A stretch of 47,132 nucleotides of DNA from assembly GCA_022925895.1 (NCBI GenBank), contig JAKSYS010000505.1, positions 1-47,132 on the forward strand, in the 5' to 3' direction. Below the pieces are notes generated by a model that saw only the letters and a program-made list of their open reading frames with translations, had not been told where the DNA came from and made no database searches. The stretch's first letter is position 1. Every line of letters begins with the position of its first letter. This document shows, piece after piece, positions 4,872-23,202 of the stretch. The position numbers and the translations under genes were made by a program. This DNA is from Fragilaria crotonensis. Lineage: Eukaryota; Bacillariophyta; Fragilariophyceae; Fragilariales; Fragilariaceae.

Positions 4872-7374
4872 ATGGCGTCTCCGACACCAACTTCTGACCC
4901 CGTCACCGCGTCCCCGACGCCACCTGTCTCCGACCCTATCGTCGCCTCTGATAGGCCCGATAAGCCCATTATGGGCAACATTGTCTCCCTTTCCAGGGAT
5001 GATTGGTCCGCTTGGACTGGCGGTAAGCCAGCTCCTGGTTGGGTCGGCCTCGATCCGAGCACCGCCGACGACATCACGTCACCAAACCAACTCCGACCTG
5101 TCCATGCCTCCGCCTCACAAAAGGGGTACAACTTTCGTCGTACCGGCATGACGACCCTCTTTACCCAAGCGAGCAGTCTCGTCGACTTCCAGAACGCCGT
5201 TTGGGACCATCTCGTCGACTGCGGGATGGACACCATCGCTTACCTCCCCGATCCCGAAAGCTCCTCCATGATGACGAACGTCGTCAGGAGCCACTCTCGC
5301 TACACCGTCGCGACAGCGAAGACTCTCAGCTCCCAGCAGATTCTTCGTTACGACAAGTACGACAAGTCGAACGACCTCGCCGCCACCAAGTTTCTTCTCT
5401 CGTCCCTTGATCCCGCTCTCATGAGCAAGATCAAAGAGAAAATGGACGACGATGACTCGTTTCACGTCGTCTGGCTCCAGCTCATCAAGACGATTCAGTC
5501 GACTTCGATCGAGCGTTTTGAAGACCTGAAGGCCGCGATCAAGGCTCGCCACCCGTCCCAGTACGCCGGCGAAAACCTCGAAGCCCTCGCTGCCGACTAT
5601 CGAAAGGACGCACGTGAGCTCACAACGGCAGGTCAGTATGATCACAACCTGACACTCACCATGCTCAAGACCTTTCTTCTGGCCGGCGGAGCCGGAAACG
5701 AAGACTTCCGCTTTCCTCTTCGTTCGACGAAGCAGCGGCTTGATCAGGCGCTCCTTGACATTGGATACAAGGAAAAGTCAGGCGCCCATGCTCACATGGT
5801 CGCTGAGAAATTGACGTTCCAAGATATTTGTCGCCAAGCTGAAGATGCGTACCGTACGCAATTTGACAGAAAGGAATGGCCTCCAGCGAGTCATGCACCT
5901 GATGTCCGAGCTCCGTCTGCGACGTTTGGCAATGTCGCAACTGCCCCAGCAGGTATCTCCCGAGCCGAGGTACTTACGTTGATTCAGTCCCAGGCATCCG
6001 GGACCGAAAGCGACAACGAAGAGGGCAATTGCCACAAGTGTGGAAAACCCGGTCACTGGGCGAACAAGTGTCGGAACTCAATCGTAAGTCGGATCGTCCT
6101 CCTCCTCTGGGTCCGTCAGGATCGCACCAACAAACATAAATCCTGGCGCACAATTCCACCACTTCCCGGAACTAGCAATTCCAAGAAAGTGAAGGATAAA
6201 ACCTTCAACTGGTGTGAGAAGTGTCGTCGTTGGACTGTCACGCACACGACCGCCACTCACACCGGTGGAGAACGTCGTCCTCCCGCTCCGACACCGTCGC
6301 CAAGGGCAAATCTCAGCATTTGGCGCCGGATCCCTCCGTTTGGTTCCTTGACTTCCCCGTCCAACCAAACGTCGTTCTCTTCTCGTTCGCTTTTAACCCT
6401 CATCCCAGGCGCGAACCCATGGCTACTTTTTGCTCTTTCCCTCGCTATCTGTGCCATTGTTCCTAATTTGGTTACTTTGGCTATCTATCTTGCGTCCGCC
6501 ATTCCATGGTCGACCATTTTGGCTTGGGTTGCCAACAACCTTCACCAACTTGTGCTTCATCAGCCAACGTTGCTGCTCGCCCCCACCGTTTGGATTGCTC
6601 TTCTCTTCATGTCTGTCTGGCCCCCGAAGTCCTTTTTGCAATCTCCTGTCGCTCCGACGGCTCCCTCGTCTCCTCCGTTCACGCGTCATCAACGTCGTCG
6701 CTTCTCGCGACTCCTCAAGAAGTCGTTCGCTCCGCCACGCTTCAATTCGGGTATTCGCGCCAACAAGTTGCATCGTTCCTATCCTCTACGTCTCCGACAA
6801 CAAGGCTATGTCGCATCGCGACCTCCCACGCTCGCTCAGCGCGACGACTTTCGTCACTTTGCGACTCTCAAAGAACGCGCACTCCGTCTTCAACGTCGCG
6901 CAGACAAGCTTCGCACCTCCCGTCGTTCTCCTACGTTGCCGCCTACCACAGGCCAAAAGGGAGAGGGAAACAGCAAATCCAAGCGTTCGTGCCCTCCCTG
7001 GTGTTCCAAACGCTCCCGTCCGTCGCCACGAACCGCAAAGTATTGCCCTGTGGCACCCGCCAACTCTCCCGACCCGTTCGCAATCGCTCCGCTCACGTTC
7101 CACCAACGCGCCGCCGCCAACAAGATCCTCTCTCACGTTCATCTGGCGTGCCATTCAACGCCGCTTCGCATGGCTCTTCAAGCTCCTGCACGCATGCGCG
7201 AAGCTCTCGGCCCCAAAGCAAACACGAGTCCCATCATTTGGGACTCGGGCGCCAGCATTTCCATCACTCCCGACATCTCCGATTTCGAAGGCCCCGTCAC
7301 GTCGCCTGGAACGATCACTCAACTCAAGGGCATCGCTAAGGGTCTCCAAATCAAAGGCCAAGGCGAAGTCACTT
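4872..7374 (+). CDS. Copia gag-protease part of the polyprotein, 3' end cut off by insertion
   Basis: Starts MASPTPTSDP. The gag region holds a CCHC zinc knuckle (CHKCGKPGHWANKC, about 6031-6072) that binds RNA, followed by a Trp/Cys block (FNWCEKCRRWTVTHTTATHT). The aspartic protease motif DSGASISITPDIS lies at about 7242-7280. Between them, about 6414-6625, lies a strongly hydrophobic stretch (roughly residues 515-585) that could form two or three membrane helices, then a basic segment rich in Arg. After the knuckle the frame appears shifted at about 6083 and restored at about 6135, since RPPPLGPSGSHQQ reads in the other frame. The normal reading runs through GQGEVT and stops being copia at 7374; the following stop codon belongs to the inserted transposon. 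Confidence 0.9.
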
Positions 7375-7387
7375 CATCTAAGGGCAC
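7375..7387 (+). repeat. Left terminal inverted repeat of the DNA transposon
   Basis: CATCTAAGGGCAC, the exact reverse complement of 19584-19596. The bases further in (cgatacgtagg against aaggatgagg) are only loosely alike. The flanking TT is at 7373-7374. Confidence 0.9.
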
Positions 7388-7504
7388 CGATACGTAGGAT
7401 AAAAATATATCCGAAATCTTCGTTTTCAGAACGAGGTCTATTTTTTAACGTATATATTTAGCATTTTTGTTGTAAATCGTGTTGAGGTACGCACAGTTTT
7501 GCGT

Positions 7505-7692
7505 ACTCCTGAGTATACAACAACGTAATCCTGATACATGCAATTCATATTCCTGAATACATTCTTCATCTTTATCAAAGAAGGACTCAAGTAAATACGT
7601 TTTATTACTGCATATACATTCACCTTAATAATACGTAAAACCCGATATCTGCTTTTCAGGTTGATGCTATTTATGACAAAGTGTTCCTGAAT
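7505..7692 (+). repeat. Subterminal TCCTGA motifs, left end
   Basis: The hexamer TCCTGA occurs at 7507-7512, 7529-7534, 7551-7556 and 7685-7690, two of them as TTCCTGAAT, and again near the right end at 19273-19278 (ATTCCTGAAC). An octamer CGTAAAAC is present at 7634-7641 and at 19370-19377. Short repeated words beside the TIRs are typical transposase-binding sites in CACTA-like elements; the binding role here is inference. Confidence 0.4.
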
Positions 7693-7858
7693 TGGCGTGA
7701 CGCGTTCTGCGGTGTATTATTATCATCTATCTGCAAAGAACTATGCGTCGTTAATAGTAACGGCTATTCATCTTTCTGAATCATTATAATGCATATTCCT
7801 AAAACCATCACATAACACAACGTTGTATCTCTCTAAAGCCACACAACACGACGCATTG

Positions 7859-9322
7859 TTACAATGGCGTCATTTCGGGTCTACGATCGAACGCCTGACT
7901 CTTTCGAAGATCGTCGCGAGGTTTTCGCTTCTTTGCCCGTTCATTGTTAACCATGGGTGCGTGGGATGATTTATTCTTCTGACGCCGTTTCTGGTGAACC
8001 TTCAACAACTCCTGATTGAAGGCGTTGCCTCGCAACTGACGATCAACTTCCACAAGATCGTAAAGCTCGTTATATTTTGCAATGCCATCGTCAGACCATC
8101 CAATGCCACCATTGGCTTGCTGCTGGCGACTAACGCGCGAATGCGTATACTTCGGAAGCTGTCGCAAAAAGTGGGATGAATTCGTTAGGGTCGGGCGGGT
8201 TGTTCATTGGTCCACATTTACACACGAATAAAATCGTACTTACTGGCAGCTGTATTTCTGCTGCGTTATGCATCAAAGGCATCACCTGCATGTTTGTTCG
8301 TAAGCAGGTTGACTCGAGCAACAGTTGGCAAACCGCAATAATGACTCACCATCTGCTTTTCCATTTGTAATTCTGCTGCCCAACGCGCAGCGTAGTTGAC
8401 CAACACCAACAACATAAACGCTTCGTCACTAATGGTTAGAACATATTCCTGAAAATTGTCTTGATTGTCGCCACAATACTTGGCCATGAGGGCATCGTTG
8501 TTCCACACACTGCTAGAAACAATACAAGGGGCAAAGACATCCATCAACGCAATGTAATGGACCTGATTCTGTCGCATTTGTAGCATGTAGGCAATGTCGT
8601 CATCACTACCGGTAATCCTTTGGTAACCATTGATCTTGCCCGTTTCGCCATCTGTACAATCGGCATTTGTTAGTCACAAAAACAGCATGAGATCTTTTTA
8701 TTTGGATGGCACATACCTCGAAAACGTAAACGCATTGCTTTAATGCAGTTGTTGCGATGATTTCCCAAGAGTGCGTTTAATTTTCTTTCGTGTTTCGTGC
8801 CACCATTGCAAGTTTGTTTCGACAGACGAAACGTTGCAGTAATTACGCACCATACCACACACAGACTCCGGATTGTAATCATAGTCCCCATGCAAGTCAT
8901 CGTCAAAAAAATTTAACTCTCCGAAACAATTGGTGCTTCACGCAGCCTGTCACTAAAACCTGCAACTGTTTTGTCGACACGCTCAATGTCATATCACACG
9001 GGGCATGGCTTACCGTTGGTTGTAACATGTGCCCACCTACCGCATCTGTTTCAAATTGCACACACATCGGCAATGGTGAAACGCGTGCTTGACTTGTTGT
9101 GAGATCCGCCGTAATTGACGAAAAGCATCCATTTGATGCCGATGGTTGTGCACCACGTTGATGATGCTGCTCTGTGTTAGACGCTACTTTTATCGTTTGT
9201 TTTTCAGCAACCGCTGGAAGTTGAGCACTTGTCAACGAGGCAAGCAAAGCATTAGTCGGATCAATCTCCATGGTCCAGGCTTTGTTTGCAGCTGGTTTCC
9301 GATTCTGCGTTTTGCGTGACAT
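7859..9322 (-). CDS. Spliced accessory protein of the DNA transposon, function unknown
   Basis: Four exons on the minus strand: 9322-8717, 8651-8350, 8285-8244 and 8158-7859. The introns are GT-AG, of 65, 64 and 85 nt (GTATGT..TGTACAG, GTGAGT..ATGCAG, GTAAGT..GCGACAG), and all joins keep phase across the Met-Lys-Gln-Met and Leu-Pro borders. Two one-base shifts lie in exon 1, at the T7 run near 8911 (KFF to DDDLHGDYDYNPES) and at an A-run near 8765. A further in-frame GTAAGC..TTGCAG segment of 54 nt in exon 1 may be an optional intron. The C-terminus contains GGIGWSDDGIAKYNELY and a basic tail (RQKNKSS, KKRKPRD) that could direct the protein to the nucleus. No enzymatic motif is visible. It looks like a protein often carried by large diatom transposons, but I cannot name it. 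Confidence 0.65.
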
Positions 9323-9524
9323 TGTGCATTTTTGTGTCTATCCGTTCAAAGCCACCAGGTCTTCTTGCGTGTCATTTCGTATAAATGTGTTGTGGCATGT
9401 AAACCTTTACGTTACCAATGTACGGGCTACACAAGCTTTGAATTGTTATGTTATTTTACATGTCTGAAATCGAGTATTACAGTATTTAAAACTTGCTTCG
9501 TTTACACGTCTGACGTGACCGTTC

Positions 9525-10082
9525 ATGCCACCAAGAAATGGCAGCATCAATTTCAATTCCAGGGCCGCACTCATGCTAAGCCACATGGAACATGCAGACG
9601 TTGCATCTATCGATTCCGCCACACGTCAAGCAATCATGACTTCATCACCCGCTGTTTGCTCATCACCAGTCGGTTCCGTAAGTTTGTGTCAAGAATGCCC
9701 CTCACCGGATGAATTTCACTGTTTTGATCTTCGGTGCTTTGTCCAGCCACTGCCCGTCATTACATCACAGATGTTGGAGGCGTTTGCTGACGATATCGAA
9801 TACGTCAACGAAACCGTATCAAATTCATTCAAAGAAGACAACCAATGTCCACGCCATGCTAGACAAACAGAAATATCATTGATCAGTGGTTCCAAACCGC
9901 AATCAAAGCAAAATGTTTCCAAACCAAAATCGAATGATTCCATCTCTGTGTCTGTATCGCCGCCCAGCATACATTCCGAGAAACAAAACATGCCGTTTTT
10001 TCACTCTAACGAGTCGTATGCTTGTGATCATGGTACTTGTACCGCCCCAACGCCGTTGGCAAAGAAACGCAAGCTTCATTGA
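9525..10082 (+). CDS. Small ORF with C-terminal nuclear localisation signal
   Basis: A 185-residue frame beginning MPPRNGSINFN and ending in PLAKKRKLH, a good monopartite nuclear localisation signal at the very C-terminus. The middle is Ser/Lys-rich and apparently unstructured, with an acidic block (EAFADDIEYVNE). A perfect GTAAGT..GTCCAG stretch of 69 nt inside the frame (starting about 9679) could be an intron; because 69 is a multiple of three the frame stays open either way. It lies head to head with the accessory gene (203 bp between starts), so the two may share a promoter. No family was recognised. It could be a DNA-binding accessory factor of the transposon, which is inference. Confidence 0.45.
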   Translation: MPPRNGSINFNSRAALMLSHMEHADVASIDSATRQAIMTSSPAVCSSPVGSVSLCQECPSPDEFHCFDLRCFVQPLPVITSQMLEAFADDIEYVNETVSNSFKEDNQCPRHARQTEISLISGSKPQSKQNVSKPKSNDSISVSVSPPSIHSEKQNMPFFHSNESYACDHGTCTAPTPLAKKRKLH

Positions 10083-11066
10083 CGCGTGTTTTGTTGCGGG
10101 GTCAACGTTCACTGTTACACGATGATGCTGTACTAAGATGTCGAAGTACGAGGACTCCTCGATTGGTAGTACTGACTACTGACTGGTGGTGTCGCACTTA
10201 GGAGTGTGTACTACAGTACTGGAGTAGTACTCCACTACTCGGCATTAGATATTTTTTAAATCTCGTTAAATAGTCGTTAAAAAGACGTTATTTCGAGCGA
10301 TCTTGTTGTTGTTTGACAGCAAATGCACACAACCTGTCACCTTCAACAGCATACTTCACTCTCTCTTCACACCTTCCCATTGCCACCTCTTTTCTTCTGA
10401 ACACCTCCTCTTGATCACCACCATCTCATTGGTCTTATTTGTGTGAGTTCTGTGTTTGTGTTGTTGTTTTTCCCCGTTTATGAATGGACTTCATCATTTT
10501 GCTGTTGTGTGAAATCGTCTTGTAACCCGGATATACGAAACTGCCCAGTGCACGTGATTTCTCAATGTCGGTACAGTAGGTACCTACAGCAGTACAGTAC
10601 TGTAGCACAGTACCGCATAACTCCGTACGCAGTATTGTTCTACTGTATCAAGGACACAGTGTTTGATCAGCGCAACCACTTTTACCGTCCGGTGTATACA
10701 TTTCACACTCACTTCTCTTGTCCTACTTCACCACCTTTACAGTCCTTTGCTTCAACAAGCAACAAAGCAAGCAACCCTTTTCGAATACCATTGGTCATTC
10801 CTTTCGGAAAGACTTGTACCAAGAGTGGGGGCTTGGCGTTACATCTGTTTCTTGTGTGGACGCTGGTCACCTGGGGAATCTTGCTTTATTCATTTAAAGT
10901 AGTGTGTCCGCACGTCGTGCCTAACCAGCAAAGCACCTGAGACTTAGTGGACGTCCTTGAGGTTGTTGATTCAACAAATCCCGGTCATTCTCTAGTGACC
11001 GTCCCATTCTTGATACTTGTTCTTTGAAGAAAGGAAGATCAGCTACGAGATCCATTCAATTCAATT
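10083..11066. other. Intergenic region upstream of the GNAT-Ulp1 gene, GTAC palindrome cluster
   Basis: About 1 kb without a convincing gene. Bases 10140-10245 and 10560-10645 are packed with short palindromes such as AGTACT, GGTACC and GAGTAGTACTC, able to form small hairpins. The last 300 bases are pyrimidine-rich and probably hold the promoter and leader of the gene starting at 11067. Open frames at 10443-10940 are Cys/Ser/Phe-rich and look like chance. Confidence 0.5.
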
Positions 11067-14000
11067 ATGTCGGTTAATACTGATGATGGATTGACAATAA
11101 TGGCAACTGCTGCATCGCACGCTGATGCAGCAGTTCGTCTTCTTTCAACTGCGGCAAATTCTCAATCAGTCAATGCTGCAGCTGTTGAGACAAGGGATAG
11201 TGCAGCAAGCAATGCTTCACAAGTACATCGAGCGGTGCATGCTCTAACCACGAATTCTCCTACTTTTGAAGGATCTTTACAATTAGAGACAGGCGAAGAG
11301 AAAATGGAATCATACACAGACACAGCTTCATCCAGTCTGGGAGCTAAAGCCCCCCAAAGTTTGTCATGCGACATGCCACTTTCTTCTTGGACATATCGCA
11401 CCGATGCGTACTGCTTCACTGGGCTGTCGGAGCTACAAAAATTGCCAAGTGATGGAAAGCATTCTCTCCGAGGTGTTGTGCAACGCTTTAAAACGATACG
11501 TCGAGTGGGTGTGTTCGAAACGCAATTAGAAAGATTTAAAGGATGGGGCACGGACTTGCGAATGTGGCGCTTTCTTGAACCGAACGAAGGCGATAATTCA
11601 AAGTGGCTCTACAATATCGTTGTTGTCGATCCCAGGGCAACAGTTTTTCATGTTGATAAAATGAAACATGCGGAAGCTTCCTCGGCAAAGCTTGAATTCT
11701 TTACAGGTCTTGCAAGAAAGTTTTATTTAACCATGTTTGAGGCAAATGAGGAGAATACCTACAAAATTGATCTGTCGCTGAATCGGGATACGACAGTTAT
11801 GTTATTGGCATCGAAAGTTGGAAGCAAGGACTTGCCCAAATCAACATTTTATTTACGCAAACACGTTCATGTCGTATCAGCTGCATCGTATCGTTCTGTA
11901 TGTCCTGATGAAAAAGATGATGACTCCAAGCCCTCTGGATCCATATCTCCGGCTACGTCTACGGCTCCAAAATCTGCGTCTTTGGACGACGCTGATAAGG
12001 AGACCAAGGAGACCAATGTCATGCTAACATGGTTGGCAGTTTCTGACAGGACACATCCGATGCCATCTATTGCTGCATCATGGCGTCGACAAGGGATTGG
12101 CCAGTTCATGTTTATACTCATTATCAAGCAATGTGCAGCATTCCAAGATGGAGTCAATATTGAAGTCTTTTTGCAATGCCATGAGCCGGGCGCATTCAGA
12201 TTTTACTGTATGCTGGGCTTCCAACGACTCAATTCTAATCACGACGATGGTTTCACATTGCTTCCACAGAAGTTGCAAGACGTCCTATTTGCAGTTCCAC
12301 CGAATAAGAGAAAGGGAAGTCATCGACAATCTACATTTTCATTCTGGGGTGATGATCCCGAACAAGTTGGGCAATCCGCCACTAAGTTGATGCACCTGGG
12401 CCACCAACAATTACGAACCGTGATTGAAATTGACGACGATGGATCTGTGGTGGTGTTAGAAGCAACGAAGGAAGGCCTGCAACTGGACGAAAATGTTCAC
12501 ATACCCTTGAAAGCTACGTGGTGTGAGTATCCACCACCACGTTTTGGACCGAATGGGATTCGACTGTCGTATTCAATTTCTTTGATTGAAAAGCTTCTCA
12601 AAGGACTTCCACGCATTCAAGAACTATTACCTCCAACCTATGCAAACCCTGTGCCTGCGACATCTCTTCCAGTCAAAGGTCACATATCGATATTGCGAAG
12701 GATCATACATAGCCACTCTGAAGGCACAACTTGGATGTCATCTAGTGAAATGGACTTGATGGTTGCAACTTTGATGCTCGACGGACGTTACGAAGATTCC
12801 GCTTTTGTAGTGCCGTTTAGTATTTGCGAAGGCATATCGATTGCCTTTGGTTCATACGTTAGGTATAAGAAGTTGTTGACGCAAGCCGCAACGCTTCAGG
12901 CAATGCTTGATGACGGAACTCGTTCCTTAGAAGACGTGGACGTGGTCGTTAGAGAGAATCTCGGACGTGAGGTTGCAGATGCATTGTCCGAATACAATAA
13001 TCACATGAGCAACCTTCTTGTCAAAGTTGTCAGTCGGAATCCTGGTTTGCTTCAACGAAGAATAATTGTGTTTCCATTTCGTGAAGGTCGCGACCATTGG
13101 TCTGCCACGTTTGTGTTCAATGCCGATTCCATTTTTGAAAGCAAAGAACAAAGCGACTCTTCGTCGAACACAGGGACAGTCCTGCGACCTTGCTTCTTTC
13201 GGTATTGCTCATTGCGCAATGATGGTACACGCAAGGTTGCATTAAATCAAGGTGTCATTTGGTTTTTGAACTTGTGTGCTTCCTACGAAATGCACATGAA
13301 GTCGAACCTGGGAAGTCAACGAATTACATTTATGGAACCTTTTGGATCAAATACTGAAGGAGACATGTTAGGGACCGATCTTTTCCCCGCACTGCGCGTC
13401 AACGAAGATGGATACTTCCCATTGCAGAGCGATGGCTACAATTGTGGTGTTGGTGTCTGTGCAACAATTGGAATATTGTTCCGTGAATTTCTCCCTCGAA
13501 ACGACGACTTCTTGTTTGATGATCTTTTTTCCAGAGCAAACATGCCTACTTTTTGTTGTGAAAACAGTGGCGAGATTTTTTGTCACATGCCGGTTAGCAT
13601 AATGACCAAGCTTCCAGGTAATGACGATGCAGTTGGAGCGAAGAAGAAAAAGGAGAAAGACTACCTTTCTTCAGTAAGAGAGCAGTGGTTTACTTTGTTT
13701 GATCGAATGGCTGAATTTCAATTTGTTGGAGGTCCATATATGTTGGACAAGAAAATGAACCAAACATTGCGTATGCTTCCACCATGGACTTACTTTCATG
13801 GCCTCGTGGTAAAAACGAATTATCTCAAGAGAGACAAAGGAGAAAGCTGCTCTTGTGCTCCGGCAGGCTAAACAAGCACCTCCAACAAACCCACCTTTCG
13901 TTATGGTAGGAAGTGTTGTGGATTTGACCACACCAACCAAAATGACGCGAGCAGGACATGCAGGAGTTGTCACGGACGTCACAACACCATCTGCTCATGT

Positions 14001-16213
14001 GCAGGGATCTGATACGAATAATGAATCAGACTTTGTGTTGCAAGATACAGACGATGAACAAGAATTTCAAGAAGCAAATTCAAGCAATGTCGACGGGTCC
14101 AGTAACGACTCAGCTTTTCGTTTAAAAAGCGAAGAAAAGAAACCAGAAATCGGGGATGTCAGGTTTGCATTCGTAACTCAAAGCCAAGTCAATGCCAATC
14201 CGTGGCTGAAAATGTTGCTGTTCAAACAGCAACATATTCAGCCATCAATGAATTAGGTGATGATGTCACAGCTGAAATTAGAGATGTCCATGCAGGCAGC
14301 GAAGTCCAAAATGAATTCGGTGATAATGTCATGCGTGAGGACCAAGATGAAAGTCATGATATGGACCAAGATGAAAATCATGATATTCACGAAACGATAG
14401 AAGTCACGAATGGTTTGGGTGAAAAGCAAGATGCTACCAGAGCCAGTGATGAAACTTCTGCCGTGTCCCCGCCATGTCATGAAACTACTGCGGACGATCC
14501 TAACAAGGTGACAGTAAAGTATTTGAAATCTTTCGATCCCAGACGTCTGCGAATACCCAAGCGGCCTTCAGAGGCAAAAGTGGATTGGATCAAAAGATTG
14601 AGACTTGGCTCTGATGATAACGAGGGATTCAAATCTTTAACAGAAAACCAAAAGAAAAGAGCAAGAAATTCCCGCAAAAAGCAAGTTGAGGAAGAGGAAA
14701 AACTTGACGCGATGGAAGCAGAGTACGAGGCTTCGTTGAGAAAGAAGATATGCACCCAATCTTTGAAATCTATTAAAAGCTTCCAAGACAAGTATCGAAC
14801 CGACCATGAGGAAGAAGAGCCTATGGTGAAACGCGATGCCGACTACGAACGTGAGCTCCAGCAATTCATTTCTGATAGTTTTGAGGCTTGGGGATGGGAT
14901 TCCGACGAAAAGCATGAGAACCTAATATCTACATGGGCAGCGCAACTACACAACCCCGACAATACCGAAAAGGAACAACAGTGGATACGCACTCTTATAA
15001 AGGCACTGAAGGATGAACGAGCCACATTCAAGAAGAAGCTTACCAAAGAGTTTATGTTTACCAGGCGTTCCATGGTAAAAGGTCTCAAATACGTGAGCAG
15101 AACCAACACTTTCAAGGCACGTTTGGTATTTTATGATGTTGATCCGGACAACAAAGATAATTTTATAGAACAGGAAGAGGAAATGCAGGTGGATGAAGCT
15201 TGGGTCCGTGATGAATTTTCCGAAGAAGATGTTCAGCATATTATTAATATGCGCCTTGACAATACTTGGATACAAGCTCCGCGGGACATCGAGGTGTGGA
15301 TCGGAAAACAAAAAATTGTTCGTGTGCGTTACACTGGACCTCGACAGATGCGCGTCATTGACAGTGAGGCAATGACAAAGTATTTGAGAGAGAAGCAGAA
15401 TAGACGTTCAAGTAGAGCTAGAGCGATTCGTCTGGCATTTAAGAAAAGACGGGCAAAACCTTTAAAGGAACAATCTTTGACGAAGAAGAAGATGACGAAC
15501 CAGAGCCTCGCAAAACGATCAATATAAAAGAAAAGTGGGTCGGCAGAATGAACAATGGGAAAGAAACAGACCTTGACGAGACTTTTGTCAGGAAAAATTT
15601 CGGTGACGCCTTTGCTAATGAACTTAAGAGTTCGAAGAGAGGTTTCGTGGATGTTCCAGTTGGAGATTTTAAACATTCTCATCTGCATCTGCATCCTCAT
15701 TTGGAGGTTCCTGGTGCCCCGACCGTACGCTTCACACAGAAGGATGGCAAGGATTTGTGCGTGTCGAAATCGTTAGCTTCAGCTCTTCACTCACTTGGAT
15801 TTGAGAAAGAAGCCGCAGAAATAGATTTCTATGGTGAGGAAATCTTGAAAGGTGCTGTCGTTGATGCTCTTGATTGCGTGATGCTGCGTGCAAGGAAAAT
15901 TCTACCTAAGTGGATTGTTATTGACAGGATCCCTAAAAGTTTTGATTGGCAGAAAGATCTATTGGATGAGCGCCATATTTTGGTTGGTGTCTTGTACGCG
16001 TCTGACGGCAATTGTTCTCATGCGGTAACAATTCATGGAGGATTTGTGTATGACGCAAATGAAGTCGTTGCACTCCCGTTGTGCCAAGAGGCACTTGATT
16101 ATTGCACTTCAACAGCAGATGTGAAGAGTTCATTTGTTCGCTTTCGTCGTGGGTATTTCCTAAGGTACAAAGGGACAAAAAAGCACAAACTTGATCTGAT
16201 GACGCTTGCATAA
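11067..16213 (+). CDS. GNAT acetyltransferase - Ulp1-like SUMO peptidase fusion, with a second peptidase-like domain
   Basis: One long coding unit read in four pieces: 11067 to about 13840, then +1 shift to about 14190, back to about 15440, then a third frame to 16213. Piece 1 (934 codons) has a GNAT-like fold at residues 300-400 with the acetyl-CoA loop WRRQGIGQF (339-347) and the motif GAFRFYCMLGF; then a Ulp1/C48 domain starting at WMSSSEMDLM, with His677 (RDHWSATF), Gln787 and Cys793 in QSDGYNCGVGVC. The acidic triad residue is probably Glu757 in FMEPFGS instead of the usual Asp. Piece 2 carries VVDLTTPT (13915-13938), a canonical SUMO-interaction motif. Piece 3 is charged, with helical Lys/Glu stretches. 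The last piece has LCVSKSLASAL and SHAVTIHGGFVYDANE, spaced like Cys and His of a papain/C39-type peptidase. Frame changes are single-base and look like errors or decay. Confidence 0.75.
13915..13929 (+). other. SUMO-interaction motif (VVDLT)
   Basis: The codons read VVDLT followed by TPTK, matching the hydrophobic SUMO-interaction consensus (VIDLT type). A related VVTDVTTP lies about 20 codons further on. It lies just after the Ulp1-like domain in the same coding unit, in the frame used between the first and second frame changes. Together they suggest binding to SUMO chains or SUMO-modified chromatin proteins; this is inference. Confidence 0.55.
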
Positions 16214-16321
16214 GGAACTACAATCTATGTGAATGATTTACATTACGTATGACATTCATTTGATTGCTTTACATTAAGTTGATTGCTTTACATTAAGTTT
16301 GACATTTAATTTCTGATCTTA

Positions 16322-19108
16322 TTAATTTAAGTTGAATTCTGTGATGGATAGTGATAGAGTGGTAAACTGGGCGGGCCACTCGTCATACGGTTTTGTTACC
16401 AAAACTTTTGAATCATCATCCTTAATGGAAACCACAAAACAAGGGGAATCAATTGCGTTGGGTGATATGGTCAGGTAGGTGCTTGACCAACTCCATTCTG
16501 TAAATAAAACGGAATCAATGTGCGACCGTTTCATTGCTGCCTGAACAACCAAAGCAAATCGCTCCGGGTTGTTTGGATCGTCATCCAATACAACAACGGC
16601 AGCTAATCGACAAGGACAAATACTATCATCATTGAACTGGACATTCATCCAATCGTAGACAGCTCCGCCAGATTGGTAGGCAGGATGACATCGAAAAGTA
16701 TAAATGTGCCGCACATATTCAGTTGCAATGCGGACATGAAGACCAAAATGTTCAGTCAGAAACTCGAGCAATGCTGTTGGCAATCGCATCCGTTGAAGGT
16801 CAGTACAGCTATGCCATACCACTCGAGGCACTCAAAGACGCACGTCACGGTTGCAAACGTGGCGTGGCCAGACGTTTGCAAAATGGCAGATTCGGTTGTG
16901 TCGTCATCATCATCGCTGTTTACGTCGGAAACGCTTGAGTTATCGAAAACTTCATTGTCACCCCAGATACGTGTGTGAACCAAATTAATGATATGGGAGT
17001 CTGCAAGTCGTTGTGCAGATTGCAGTTCATACAAAATTCCTGCATGTCGTTTTGTGCCCGACGCCCAGGTCGTTTGGCTGCATAAATCAATAGCGATTCT
17101 GGTCGTTCGGCATTAAAGTTTCGTGGTGCCCCAAATCGTTCGATGTCATCAACAATGTGCAACAATTCATGAAACTTTGGAAATTTCCAACAATTTTCCT
17201 TCATTGCAGGGATATTGTTTTTACACAATTTTAATAACGCTTCGATCGACGAACGTGCCGATTGAATTGCGGTCGTGCTGTTGGAGCTGTCCCAAAATGT
17301 GTCCTGCATAAGCCAGGCATCAAAACAGAGAAGTGCTTCGAACACTTCAACAATGTTTTTCACAGTGGCAATGCTTCGGCGCTCAAACGTGTGGTCCAAA
17401 ATATCCCAGCCTTCATCATATTGAGACAAAATAACAAATAGAAAAACCAATCCGAGGCGTTCGCGCGCTGTTACCTTTGTTAGATTGGTCACTCCACGGC
17501 TAAAATCGGTAGCCGGATATTTTCTGCGATACGTTTGCCGGTGGCGGAGATGAAATTGAATTGCAAGATTGTCCAAAGCTGCTTTGCGAGATACCGGAAC
17601 ATTTTCTAACACCAAAAAGGTAACGTGCTCAATTAAACCTTTGCGAAATGCATGCATGGTTTCCACAGGAGTTGCACCAAAGATACCTCGTACATGATCA
17701 GCAAGCACTTCGTCTTGAAAGGCATTGTGCACTGCATGTTGCGACCACCGTACACGAATTGCCTTGTCGTCACTGGAGGCAATCATTGCCATTGGTGCGG
17801 CATACAAGTACCGACACGTAAAATAAGGAGAATCTAAATCTTCATAACTGACATTGCATGATCGACAGTGGCGTTGCACCTGCGGCGTGTGGGGGCCATA
17901 ACGACCACATAGAGCATCCCTTCTTGCATGTCTTGTATCACAAAAAGAATGCACGTAACAATATCAACATGAATAGATCCGGTTGGTCCTAATGGTAAAT
18001 GGACATTGCGTAGGCGCGAAGACGACGTCCGAAATGAGGATAGCACAACCTGTAACTGCGCATGATAGTTGCGAATGTTGTCACCAAGTTTGAATGTCTG
18101 ATTTTGCGCAGAAGAAGTTTTGGTTTTGGCAAGAATCCATGAAATCCCATGCGGGGATGGTGCGTCGAAATGGCTCAGCAAATATGGCAGGAGTAAACAT
18201 ATACGGTTTGAGTGAAAATCGGTCATTCCCGGTGACAGATGTACGATCAATCCATTGTATGATTGGGACAAAGAGTTGACGTTGAGGATTGGTAACAAGG
18301 CGTTGATACGCATCTTGATACACCTGACCGGACAAAGCTTCGCCTCGAACACCATTGGGACTGGTGTACGGTCGCAATGGGTCCTGCACATCAATAAGGA
18401 GATTTTCCTGGGTCATAATGGTTCGATTTTGTAACAATTGTAACAGTTGAGGAACAAAATCAAATGTTATGACATCACACGGAGGACCGTGTGGCACGTC
18501 AACCCTGCGTACAGATGGCAACAGCTGCGTGGCATTATTCATCATAGCATAAAGTCGATCAACATTCCTGCGATGTGTTTGCCTCCTTCTGGTTGAAAGG
18601 AAAAGCCGTCGGCGATGGCCGCACGTGCCCATGTTAGAATTGCTTCGAAAGCATAGTCCGGTGCATTCATATCATTCAGAAGTTTAAGTAGTGCCACAGT
18701 CCACTTTTGGTTTGTTGAGAATGGAAAAGAGACAGGCGGAGGCGGCACTGCACAAGATTGGTGTGGCACATTTGGTGGACACGGAACATGGTGAAAATTG
18801 CCGTCTTCAATTGGAAAAGCAGTTGATCCTGATGAAGAGAAATTGTCGTTTACAAAATCACAACGTAGCGGCACAGCGCGTTGAGAGCTTGCGTAGACGG
18901 CGTTAGCGTCTTCCGCCGCACGGTTTGTTGGGCAGGGCACCATAACGCAACTAGTGTCTAACGCGGAACCTTTACCTGCAGACATACGGGCACGAAAGAA
19001 ATGCCAACACGAAGTGGATTTTTGTAAATGCATTCCAAACGATTTCTCGCTTACAAACCGCCGACGGCGTCCGCTGCAGTGAGGATTGAGACAGACAAAA
19101 GATGACAT
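16322..19108 (-). CDS. Zinc-finger transposase of the DNA transposon, frameshifted
   Basis: Starts MSSFVCLNPHCSG at 19108 with a C2H2-like zinc finger (C..C, then H..C/H near KSFGMHLQKSTSCWHF). The body reads KWTVALLKLLNDMNAPDYA, then FVPIIQWIDRTSVTGNDRF, FVIQDMQEGDALCGRYG followed by a Cys cluster (CRSCNVSY), GATPVETMHAFRKGL, KFPKFHELLHIVDDIERFG and, near the C-terminus, CHPAYQSGGAVYDWMNV, which resembles the end of TNP2/CACTA-type transposases (HPNY...YDW). Asp in QWIDRT, Asp in FVIQD and a Glu in NAERPES are candidates for the DDE residues. Frame changes occur near 18587 (A-run), 18135, 17918 (GGG where GGGG is expected), 17030 and 16835. The blocks between them stay coherent. It ends 108 bp from the convergent Ulp1 gene. 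Confidence 0.8.
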
Positions 19109-19583
19109 GACAAAAGAAACAAAACAATATCTCAGCAGCAATCGTGCAACCAGAAACGGATGCAAAGTGGCAATTAGTAACAAGGCGAAATACTGGTTGT
19201 GGTGGCTGCTCTATCAGGCAAAGGCAATCAGTGTGATAGAGTGCCATTATAAACCTGATCAGAGATTCAGATTCCTGAACTCACACTCGTAGTAACCGAG
19301 AACAAAAGCACAGATTTCATTAACAAAAATCACGGAATAATGAAATTGTTGCAGAAAATGAACTAAACGCGTAAAACTTGGTATCATTACGTACGTATGA
19401 GAATGATTAACTTCATACCCCGGCATATGTATTGCGTATGTAAGAAAACAATGAATAACGGCTTTTTAATTTACTCGGATTTACGCAAACACATCACCGA
19501 ATAACGAACGGAATACATACATATGTAGTTTAATTCATTTAAATGAAAAAAAACTTAAGTTAATAATGTTGAACCTCATCCTT
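19109..19583. other. Right subterminal region of the DNA transposon
   Basis: About 470 bp of AT-rich non-coding DNA between the transposase start and the right TIR. It contains TTCCTGAAC (19272-19280), CGTAAAAC (19370-19377) and several TACGTA-like words (ATTACGTACGTATG, TTGCGTATGTAAG). It probably holds the transposase promoter and binding sites. Confidence 0.45.
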
Positions 19584-19596
19584 GTGCCCTTAGATG
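19584..19596 (-). repeat. Right terminal inverted repeat of the DNA transposon
   Basis: GTGCCCTTAGATG, the exact reverse complement of the left repeat. The second TT of the target duplication follows at 19597-19598. Confidence 0.9.
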
Positions 19597-22500
19597 TTGG
19601 GCTGTCCACGATCAGCTCGGAAACCTTCGACTTCTCAAAGTTCCCGCGTTCCACGTTCCCAACATCAAAGTCCGACTCCTCTCAACGTCCAGTCTCCTCC
19701 AGACCTACCCTGACGAAACGATCACCATCGAACCGAATCGTCTGACGCTCAGTGGCGTCCCGAACGACGTCAACCGAGGACCCGTCACTGCAAACGTCAA
19801 CCCGCAGAACAATCTCCCAACGTCGGAAGCGTACAACGCAACCGATCCTTTCAAGGCCGCCGACGCTCTCGTTTCGATTGTGAACACCGTCCACGAAAGG
19901 AACCTCAACCTTAACGAAGCAGAGAAAGAATTGCTTCGTTGGCACTATCGTTTGGGCCACATCGGTTTCAAAAAGGTTCAATTTATTCTGCGTTCGGGTG
20001 TGGTGAGCAAGACAGAAGAGAGTCGACGATTGCAAACCGCTGCGTGTCGACTCACCTCGTTTCCGAAATGTGCCGCCTGCCAATACGGCAAACAGCACAG
20101 ACGTCCAATTCCCGGCACGACGCCTTCTTCGATTGTCAAAGACAGAGCATACGCTCTCAAAACGGACAATCTTCTCCCGGGTCAACGCATCTCTGTCGAC
20201 CATTTCATTTGCAGCACTCGCGGACGTCTACTTACCTCCGCCGGAAAGACCAAGCTTGACGATATGTATACCGGTGGATGTATCTTCGTCGACCACGCCT
20301 CCGGCTTCATTTTCGTCGAACATCAAGTCAGTTTGAACTCCCACGAAACTCTCAAGGCAAAAGAGAGCTTTGAGCGAATGTGTCGCAACACAGGAGTCAC
20401 ACCGCAAGAGTATCTCGCTGACAACTCGAAAACGTTTACGTCCTCTGAGTTCTCTCGCAACCTTTCCGACTTCCAGCAAGTCATCCGATTCGCTGGCGTC
20501 GGCGCTCACCAACACAATGGAATCGCCGAACGCAACATCCGTACAATCATGGCCATCGCAAGGACCATGATGTTGCATTCGGCCATTCATTGGCCGGACG
20601 TCGCCGATCCCACACTTTGGCCCCTCGCCGTCAAGCATGCTGTGTTCCTAGTGAACCACATGCCTGACCCACGAACTGGCCTTTCCCCACATGATGTCTT
20701 CACAAAGACTCGCTGGGAACAAAAGAAATTGATGGACGTCCACGTTTGGGGATGTCCAGTTTACGTCCTCGACAAAATGATCTCGGACGGCAAGAAATTG
20801 CCACGCTGGACTCCTCGTTCAACTCGCACCGTCAACCTTGGGTTCTCAGACAAACACGCCAGCTCGGTCCCTCTCGTCTTGAATCCTCAAACGGGGTACA
20901 TCACCCCACAGTTCCACATCGTCTTCGACGATTGGTTCGCCACAGTTCCCGCTTCCGCCGACGACCTTCCGAACTTCAACGATGATTGTTGGCAACGAAT
21001 GTTCCGCGACTCGACGTTCCAATACGTCCTCGACGACGAAGACGAAGAAAGGCTGATTGCTGGTTCCACCGACTACGAGCAAGCAAACGAACTGCTCTCC
21101 CAGATGCAACGCGTCGCAACCGCTCTCGACAACGCGACTCCTCCGCAGGTTCTCCCAGTCGCTCCGCCTCCGCTGTCAACTCCGTTGCCGCCTCCAAGGG
21201 AGCAAATTGCGACGCCACCACCAGTCGTTGTGCCTCCTCCCCTTGCCACTCCGTTGCTGACTCCAAGGGAGGCGACTCCGCAACCGCCTACGCCGATCGT
21301 GCCTCAACTCCCGACTCCAACTCCAGTCAAACTCTTCCCATCATCGCTGACTCCAATTCGTCCTGCGAACGAAAGCGATAAGGAAGTGAGCGAGCAACCA
21401 GTCGCTCCAAAGGCAACAAAAGCAAAGAGCACACCTGTTAAACACGAACCTCGTCGCTCCACTCGCAATCGTTCGGCACCTGTCCGCCTTGGATACGATG
21501 GACAACAAGGACATGGTTACATCGCCGAATTCGATGGAACCTCCCTCGAATGGCTTTACAATGAAGTTGCCGAGTGTCTTTCGCCACCTCCCTCGTCGTA
21601 TAAGGCAAGTGTCAGCGATCCTGACACTTTGAGCTTCAACGAAGCAATGGCCGACCGCGACAACATCGAAAAATGGCTGAAGGCTGCAAACGACGAAATT
21701 CAAAGTTTGCAGAAAAACGGTACATGGATCGAAGTGCCGATCACGGAAGCCAAGACTCGAATTTTGCCCGGTACTTGGGTGTTTCGTCGCAAACGTACTC
21801 CCGATGGTACTATCAGTAAGTACAAGGCACGCTACTGTGTAAGAGGCGATCTCCAAGAAAACGTTCAGGAGACTTTTGCCCCAGTCGTGGCTTGGAGTAC
21901 TGTACGGTTGTTCCTAGTTCTTTCACTAACTTTGAACTGGAAAACTTGCACCATCGACTTCAGCAGCGCGTTCGTTCAAGCCCCGCTTTCGGATCCAGTC
22001 TGGATCCATTTGCCTCGTGGATTCCACTCTCCGAGAGGCCACGCCACGTGCCTGCGACTTTTGAAAAGCCTCTACGGCTTGAGTGTGGCGCCACGACTTT
22101 GGTACCAACACTTGTCGGAGGCCTTGCGCGAGGAAGGCTTTAAAGCCTGCGCGAACGACCCGTGCCTACTCTACAAAGACACAATTATGGTTGTTCTCTA
22201 CGTTGACGACTTAGGTATTGCCTATCGCGACCAAAGCGACCTCGACAAGCTCTTCGCCAACCTGGAAGCGAAGAATTTGAGTTTCACTCGCGAGGGCACG
22301 TTTACTGACTTCCTTGGCATCAATTTCACTCGCGACGCTACGAATGGCACGCTCACGTTGACTCAGAAAGGCCTCATCCAGAAAATTAAGGAAGCGACTG
22401 GCATGTCCAACAGCAATTACAACTGGACTCCAGCCGCTCAGGCCGCACTTTTGGAATTGACCCTGATGGACCTCCCATGACGGAAACGTGGAGCTACCGC

Positions 22501-23202
22501 TCCATCGTCGGCATGCTCCTCTATTTATCCACAAACACTCGCCCCGACATTGCGTTTGCCGTCAGCCAGGTCGCCAGGTTCTGCCACAACCCGAAACGAA
22601 GCCATGCGTCCGCCGTCAAAACTCTCGTTCGATATTTGTTGCATCGCACGAGCGACATGGGCATGATTGTCAAGCCCACCGGCACCTTGAATCTCGACTG
22701 CTACGTCGACGCCGACTTCGCAGGCCTTCATGGCCGCGATCCCGATCGTTCTCCGACCTCCGCGAAGTCTCGAACTGGGTACATTATCACGCTCGGTGGA
22801 TGTCCCATTTTGTGGAAGTCTCACCTCCAAAGTGAAATTTCCTTGTCCACGCTTGAAGCCGAATACTCCGCTCTCAGCTCCGCGATGCGTACGCTCTTGC
22901 CTCTCCGCTCCATGCTTCAGGAAGTCGCCTCCGGCATCAAACTTCCTCGCACGTTCACGTCGACGATAAAGTGTCAAGTCTTCGAAGACAATAACGGCGC
23001 GCTTCTTCTCGCCGTGAACCAACGCATTACCAACCGCACGAAGTACTTCCAAGTGAAGTGGCACTTCTTCTGGCAGCACGTGCGTGATGGCACGGTCGCC
23101 ATCGTGAAGGTTGACACTCAGGAACAGTGGGCAGATTTTCTTACGAAAGGACTAAATCGTGAGAGTTTCGAACGCGTCCGCAAACTTGTCCAAGGATGGT
23201 AA
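19597..23202 (+). CDS. Copia pol continuation: integrase, reverse transcriptase, RNase H
   Basis: Copia sequence resumes at WAVHDQLGNLRLLKVP. GAG-pre-integrase block LLRWHYRLGHIGF with the zinc-binding H and CAACQYGKQHRRP; integrase DDE residues in ISVDHF, YLADNSKTF and GIAERNIR; a Pro/Thr-rich spacer at about 21140-21450; RT with TWVFRRKRTPDG, FSSAFVQAPL, the SLYGL block and catalytic VVLYVDDLG (about 22190-22215); RNase H with CYVDADFAG, LEAEYSAL, FEDNNGALLL and ADFLTKGL. The stop is at 23200-23202. One frame change lies near 22450, where TTTT seems to lack a T: GIDPDGPPMTETWSY is in the other frame. All catalytic residues are present, so the family is probably or recently active, but this copy is split by the DNA transposon. 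Confidence 0.92.

Follow-up and report, generated by a model that had tools for sequence, protein, structure and literature searches.

Can a DNA transposon encode a protein that joins an acetyltransferase to a protease of the Ulp1 kind, and what would the transposon gain from it? This question is raised by a stretch of 47,132 nucleotides of the diatom Fragilaria crotonensis (contig JAKSYS010000505.1, hereafter the window, meaning this whole stretch), for which a reading of the letters alone (the original prediction) had proposed, at positions 11067-16213, a single transposon protein joining a GNAT acetyltransferase, a Ulp1-like SUMO peptidase and a SUMO-interaction motif (SIM). Comparing the locus with its relatives in the same genome, in which C-numbers denote contigs and L-numbers loci, we show that a predicted GNAT plus Ulp1-like protein is conserved, is under selection and travels with a Plavaka-type transposase gene, mostly in tail-to-tail orientation. 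The diatom origin is borne out by 19 matches of the genome to the silicon transporter family PF03842, the best at E 4e-193.

In the window the fusion gene begins with an open frame of 934 amino acids on the forward strand (11067-13871), comprising an N-terminal region, the GNAT domain at about residues 205-412 (11679-12302) and the Ulp1-like region at about residues 484-880 (12516-13706). The residues on which the original prediction was built are in place: WRRQGIG occupies residues 339-345 and FYCMLGF residues 379-385, the RxxGxG and FYxxxGF patterns within them not being due to chance, as they are kept in 11/11 rows of the GNAT alignment, and His677, Glu757, Gln787 and Cys793 are present in the 934-residue frame exactly as numbered. 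The single gene running from 11067 to 16213 had to be given up, as three open frames of at least 200 amino acids are found instead, all on the forward strand. The second (14202-15527) encodes a charged middle region, the homologue of which lies inside a single 1414-residue frame of L016 together with the GNAT and Ulp1-like parts. The third (15548-16213) encodes a C-terminal domain with the blocks LCVSKSLASA and HAVTIH...YDAN, both conserved in relatives, which presumably belongs to the same protein. The sequence for VVDLT, which had been placed just after the peptidase-type residues, is indeed present on the forward strand (13915-13929), but in the window copy it lies past the stop and in a frame other than that of the 934-residue protein; in the near-identical C2 copy a 1077-residue open frame includes it. 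A near-perfect palindrome with 20-base arms and a 2-base loop (14203-14244) falls where the two frames of the C2 copy overlap; it might be a frameshift signal or a short inserted sequence. The window copy is decayed, and relatives with long open frames exist.

These relatives carry the argument for a fusion. A genome-wide protein search gave at least 78 matches, grouped into at least 40 fusion-type loci, a lower bound taken from the best 49 of 197 candidates; the relatives are 31-39% identical to the window protein. Both parts were detected in 25 of the 40 loci. Of 18 loci that were retrieved, a non-random sample in whose choice long open frames played a part, 14 have one open frame that matches the GNAT profile as well as the Ulp1-like profile. 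This frame extends beyond the conserved Cys in eight of the 14 (L015-L019, L024-L026) and stops earlier in the other six. Rows for the profiles came from 12 of the 14 and from neither L023 nor C314 (L045); the GNAT region of C314 scores 3e-29 with the GNAT profile although it is absent from the profile rows. The order of the parts is the same in the window, L015/L016, L017/L018, L024/L025 and C314 subfamilies. The same fusion thus recurs in other elements of this diatom, and the parts are joined in other copies and not divided between two separate genes, the outcome that would have spoken against the covalent link on a transposon proposed by the original prediction. Alignment A1 was made without L028 and L029; the GNAT alignment (A2, 11 rows) without L022-L024, L026-L029 and C314; and the Ulp1-like alignment (A3, 11 rows) without L020, L021, L023 and L028-L031. 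The copies on C87, C589, C664, C733 and C5 were kept out because their frames are broken.

Two loci stand somewhat apart. C361 (L052), reached via its transposase, is a further fusion locus in which the three profiles are matched in separate broken frames. On C253 (L027, 13501-17500) part of a different Plavaka transposase, with a PF18759 match at E 7.2e-7 in the frame before, continues in frame into the Ulp1-like part. This looks like a nested insertion at the position of GNAT; C314, a close relative of C253, retains GNAT.

The GNAT half of the fusion is well supported by profile and motif comparison. GNAT enzymes share an acetyl-CoA loop of the consensus Q/R-x-x-G-x-G/A and a motif B of the FYxxxGF type. 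In our alignment W339, R340, R341, G343, G345, F379, Y380, G384 and F385 are identical in all 11 rows, so that the RxxGxG loop and the FYxxxGF motif are kept throughout. The Pfam family Acetyltransf_10 is found at E <= 1 in 10 of 11 rows (best 8.1e-6), and a search of the PDB with the 11-row profile finds NAA50 at E 3.3e-5 with loop and FYxxxGF motif in register, the similarity covering 56 profile positions only. Among the 26 PDB matches of this profile, 20 are named acetyl- or acyltransferases, four have uninformative names and two are ribosomal L38. The GNAT assignment of the original prediction is borne out by these searches through the relatives, the window protein on its own staying under the Pfam cut-off (13.4 bits whole and 16.1 bits as a slice, against 23.6). 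In C314 the loop reads, by eye, SWMRLRFG in place of the SWRRxGxG found elsewhere and looks degraded.

For the second half the assignment has to be more cautious. His677, Gln787 and Cys793 are identical in all 11 rows of the alignment, in the order His...Gln...Cys. The C48 family PF02902 is found at E <= 1 in 3 of 11 rows (best 0.0062), and none of the 40 fusion loci is among the 44 PF02902 matches of the genome. An hhalign comparison with the genome's own C48 proteins gave P 0.0053 around Gln...Cys at a probability of only 6.8%, two control alignments giving P 0.28 and 0.71. In a direct search four of the 11 rows reached 8.7-10.1 bits, more than the highest-scoring of 2200 shuffles (5.7); the other seven rows fell below that shuffle, the window row at -0.8 bits. 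Collections of viral contigs and of genome contigs searched with the Ulp1-like alignment contained no relative. This being a motif-level and weak-profile match, the name Ulp1-like is as far as we go, and the part is not assigned to C48. The genome also holds a separate repeated C48 family with conserved H-D-Q-C (C129, C707, C305, C131:35106 and others; L032-L043), the best PDB match of which is SENP1 at 5.7e-8.

SUMO-interaction motifs consist of a hydrophobic core beside acidic or phospho-acceptor residues. Using the pattern [VI]D[LIV][ST], which was set after the alignment had been seen, we scanned ten proteins after their Ulp1-like part and found SIM-like motifs in five of them from three subfamilies (C2 copy one, L017 two, L022 two, L018 three, L030 two). 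The C2 copy has a shuffle fraction of 0.0285; in L017, L022, L018 and L030 the fractions range from 0 to 0.0035.

Conservation of the two domains is reflected in the ratio of nonsynonymous to synonymous substitution rates (dN/dS), which for GNAT is 0.12-0.25 (seven pairs) and for the Ulp1-like part 0.10-0.23 (five pairs), pairs sharing sequences and three having dS >1; altogether it is at most 0.25 in 12 of 13 calculable pairs, and two pairs including the window are saturated. The C-terminal domain is found at 72 genome loci, 63 of which have a facing gene related to the window's transposase fragment P0003 within 3.5 kb, with gaps of 676-1538 bp. Searches of Pfam and the PDB gave no credible match for it; its motifs make a second cysteine-peptidase-like domain possible. 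Frames overlap in L015 and L016, which suggests that the GNAT, Ulp1-like and C-terminal parts derive from one ancestral protein. Distant relatives of the C-terminal domain (31-35%) in long frames at C687:24327, C317:72596 and C312:42351 have no facing P0003-type gene.

The gene facing the fusion gene is, judged by family profile, a Plavaka-type transposase, present in the window on the reverse strand in several broken frames (16325-19210). Its fragments have no Pfam match in the window copy; the transposase of the near-identical C87 copy matches PF18759 (Plavaka) with 40.6 bits at a cut-off of 26.3, and relatives reach 57.4 bits. All three long transposase relatives scanned match this family (E 4.1e-12, 9.1e-12 and 4.9e-9), and relatives on C5, C147 and C728 are above the cut-off. 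The window transposase shows CRSC, HELLH and AERPES in that order, an agreement in motif order only. HELxH is kept in 5/5 rows of the transposase alignment, and the first Cys of CRSC is replaced by Ser in L047 and L048 (SRAC). The CMCT clade described by Kojima 2025 is characterised, in the parts of that paper at hand, by CA..TG ends and C(2)C plus H(3-4)H motifs placed after the second D and before the last E, and its PlavakaB elements by 2-3 bp duplications and CATCA..TGATG ends (PMC12730594).

In 36 of the 40 fusion loci a facing gene within 9 kb is related to P0003 or matches PF18759, the latter family itself being matched by the facing gene in 22 of the 40. This count draws on all 78 fusion rows, one row per locus of 138 P0003 rows and 37 of 92 PF18759 rows. 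No facing transposase-type gene was detected at C253, C314, C589 and C717, where the remaining P0003 and PF18759 rows, checked by eye, likewise gave nothing facing.

Both genes lie within one DNA transposon of 12.2 kb (7375-19596), the breakpoints of which, 7375 and 19596/19597, are common to contigs C2, C87 and C589 in a blastn comparison of the window with the three contigs. The element ends in 13-bp terminal inverted repeats that are identical at 13/13 bases, the 5' repeat CATCTAAGGGCAC at 7375-7387 on the forward strand and the 3' repeat at 19584-19596 on the reverse strand. An 18-place pattern of the element's start occurs at nine places in the genome and its reversed control at none. The repeats are bordered by a target site duplication TT (7373-7374 and 19597-19598), and 2-bp duplications are seen at four insertions (TT in the window, TA in C2, CA in C87 and CA in C589). 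When the flanks of the window element are joined with a single TT, 34 other places in the genome match over positions 1-240 at 83-99% identity. As these 34 site copies are uninterrupted, the element has inserted in a Copia retrotransposon, parting a gag-type frame (4872-7397; zinc-knuckle match slightly under the cut-off) from a pol-type frame (19880-22480; RVT_2 match), the right-hand Copia part spanning 19880-23202. The C2 and C87 copies are 99.6-99.7% identical to the window element by blastn, from which we infer recent movement. Ahead of the fusion gene the element additionally holds a 187-residue open frame (9519-10079, forward strand), which is restricted to copies of the window element's subfamily. 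A further copy (C17:3-6856) adjoins on its right side the same Copia flank (C17:6739-6856, 96%, starting at the duplicated TT) and is perhaps the same insertion on another haplotype.

The place facing the transposase is not always occupied by the fusion gene. We counted at least 97 P0003-type loci, taken from the best 117 of 355 candidates, and 34 of the 97 are without a C-terminal-domain partner. Five related elements (C43, C30, C103, C518 and C487; L050, L051 and L053-L055), the transposases of which are 35-38% identical to P0003, were read, and 5/5 have opposite-strand frames that are related to one another and match none of the GNAT, Ulp1-like and C-terminal profiles. The C30 and C487 versions of this other gene are 99.5% identical and the C518 version is broken. 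These genes carry blocks of the SHFDxND..SQGF...WDGRLIRH type, an HxD...H arrangement resembling that of Fe(II)/2-oxoglutarate dioxygenases; in Pfam and the PDB the gene has no credible match. We had considered calling these five elements sister Plavaka and dropped the name, as their transposases are not among the PF18759 matches found.

These observations are compatible with a model, for which we see a little less than an even chance, according to which the fusion gene is an accessory gene of a Plavaka-type DNA transposon and its protein modifies proteins of the host or the transposase, relieving silencing or protecting the transposase. The fusion protein would be made alongside the transposase and would, in some subfamilies, be brought by its SIM-like motifs to chromatin or proteins bearing SUMO. 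The Ulp1-like domain would remove a ubiquitin-like modifier and the GNAT domain would acetylate lysines, perhaps those freed, SUMO removal and acetylation on the same lysine being possible. The net effect would be that host silencing of the element is relieved or the transposase protected. Anti-silencing appears to be the likeliest purpose, since enzymes that modify marks and anti-silencing proteins, either credited with such an effect or shown to have it, are carried by other transposons, as far as the accessible parts of these sources describe them (PMC12730594, PMC13317346), and since related elements fill the same place with a different gene. A bolder form of this model, which we hold to be on the unlikely side, supposes an exchangeable anti-silencing slot facing the transposase. 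In the clade of the window this slot would be filled by one large enzyme stripping a SUMO or ubiquitin-like tag and acetylating lysines (a lysine switch), possibly with a second cysteine-peptidase-like domain at its C-terminus, and in the related clade by the dioxygenase-like gene.

Several results weigh against the model. The position of Glu757, which the original prediction had counted as part of a C48-type set, is Glu in one, Asp in one and Ser in nine of 11 rows, so that the acidic third residue is not conserved; the alternative place for it, within the FFRYCS block, carries Cys in 11/11 rows. PF02902 stays below its cut-off where scores are shown (13.2 and 16.8 bits against 20.7), and a PDB search with the Ulp1-like alignment found no peptidase. 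For these reasons the Ulp1-like part might have no activity or adopt a different fold; of the SUMO peptidase originally predicted, the invariant His, Gln and Cys stand, and neither conservation of the acidic residue nor assignment to C48 is supported. Single-sequence AlphaFold2 gave no usable model for either domain, with a predicted local distance difference test score of 39.2 for residues 200-415 and 33.5 for residues 520-838. SIM-like motifs were not found after the Ulp1-like part in L015, L016, L024, L025 and L027, half of the ten proteins scanned, and the C-terminal domain shares one open frame with the GNAT and Ulp1-like parts at 0/18 loci. The L024/L025 pair, with an apparent frame break between them, has a dN/dS of 0.99, and the values of the window subfamily (0.29-0.84) are uninformative because the alignments cross broken frames.

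One or both domains might have lost catalysis and serve as binding modules, i.e. as a reader of acetyl-CoA or lysine and a binder of SUMO or ubiquitin, the protein being a tether or a decoy. The Ser at the Glu757 position, the C48 profile under its cut-off and the altered loop of C314 would fit such a role, but the invariance of His, Gln and Cys and of RxxGxG would be unusual for dead enzymes, and we regard this explanation as improbable. Slightly better placed, though still unlikely in our view, is a protein that serves the transposase without any role in silencing, as a second transposition protein that attaches to the element ends or acts on the transposase by modifying, stabilising or activating it. 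CACTA elements provide the model of transposition by two proteins, and both the tail-to-tail pairing with a transposase-type gene (36/40 loci for the fusion, 63/72 for the C-terminal domain) and the large charged middle and C-terminal regions agree with it. Against this, the unrelated gene in that place in 5/5 related elements read argues against the fusion protein being a constant component of the machinery by which the wider group transposes.

Two further explanations fare far worse. Since plant transposons are described, in the portions of the sources at hand, as capturing Ulp1 pieces (PMC2528002, PMC13317346), the GNAT and Ulp1-like parts might be captured pieces of host genes travelling as passengers; the same order of parts across five subfamilies and the low dN/dS in 12 of 13 pairs, the exception being the frame-broken L024/L025, largely refute this, and we give it very little weight. 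That a fault of assembly or annotation in one copy has created the fusion, as the split of the window copy into several frames might suggest, is refuted with next to no doubt by the 14 of 18 loci on other contigs with both parts in one frame. We retain, with the reservation stated, the accessory gene that modifies host proteins or the transposase.

Genes by which transposons act on epigenetic marks offer one of few opportunities to watch the conflict between element and silencing directly. Those described in the accessible parts of the literature comprise VANC of VANDAL elements, TET/JBP in fungal elements and SET domains in oomycete elements (PMC12730594, PMC13317346). An acetyltransferase together with a Ulp1-like domain would extend this transposon repertoire, in a diatom, to protein acetylation and the removal of modifications. 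If the exchangeable slot were true, the fusion protein would represent a hitherto undescribed kind of transposon-encoded chromatin modifier, one with two activities. The anti-silencing idea can be tested because related elements carry a different gene at this position. Among the listed matches of a full-text literature search, whose coverage leaves out most subscription papers, we found no description of a GNAT-Ulp1 transposon protein. Taken together, the predicted GNAT and Ulp1-like parts form a real domain combination, new as far as the literature searched shows, on a known kind of transposon.

Known systems share single features with it. The GNAT domain resembles NAA50 and other GNAT N-acetyltransferases in its motif A loop and motif B in register, and differs from NAA50 in the short extent of the similarity, in being joined to a Ulp1-like part and in being borne by a transposon. 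As described in the portions of the respective papers at hand, Ginger1 (PMC2836005) and CryptonF/CryptonS (PMC3212892) are likewise transposons with Ulp1/C48 or OTU protease domains, but the protease of Ginger1 is fused to its transposase, Cryptons use a tyrosine recombinase, and GNAT is not described there for either. CACTA-ULP of plants (Benjak 2008, PMC2528002), a DNA transposon carrying Ulp1, belongs to the same broad CACTA-type clade, and the KIU/VANDAL Mutator-like elements (MULEs; PMC13317346) also carry Ulp1, the anti-silencing of VANDAL being the nearest functional model; their transposases are Tnp2 and of the MULE type, respectively, and GNAT is not among the features described in the accessible text. 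The closest likeness is to PlavakaB (Kojima 2025, PMC12730594), of which the partly accessible source describes TET/JBP dioxygenases in fungal elements and very distant TET-like proteins in Agaricus. The window element agrees with PlavakaB in a transposase family matching PF18759, CA..TG termini and a 2-bp duplication; its transposase contains CxxC and HxxxH motifs, the first of which is altered in some relatives. It differs in its ends, CATCT..AGATG compared with the published CATCA..TGATG, the fifth base being T and not A, in its diatom host, and in an accessory gene that encodes GNAT and Ulp1-like parts instead of a TET/JBP dioxygenase.

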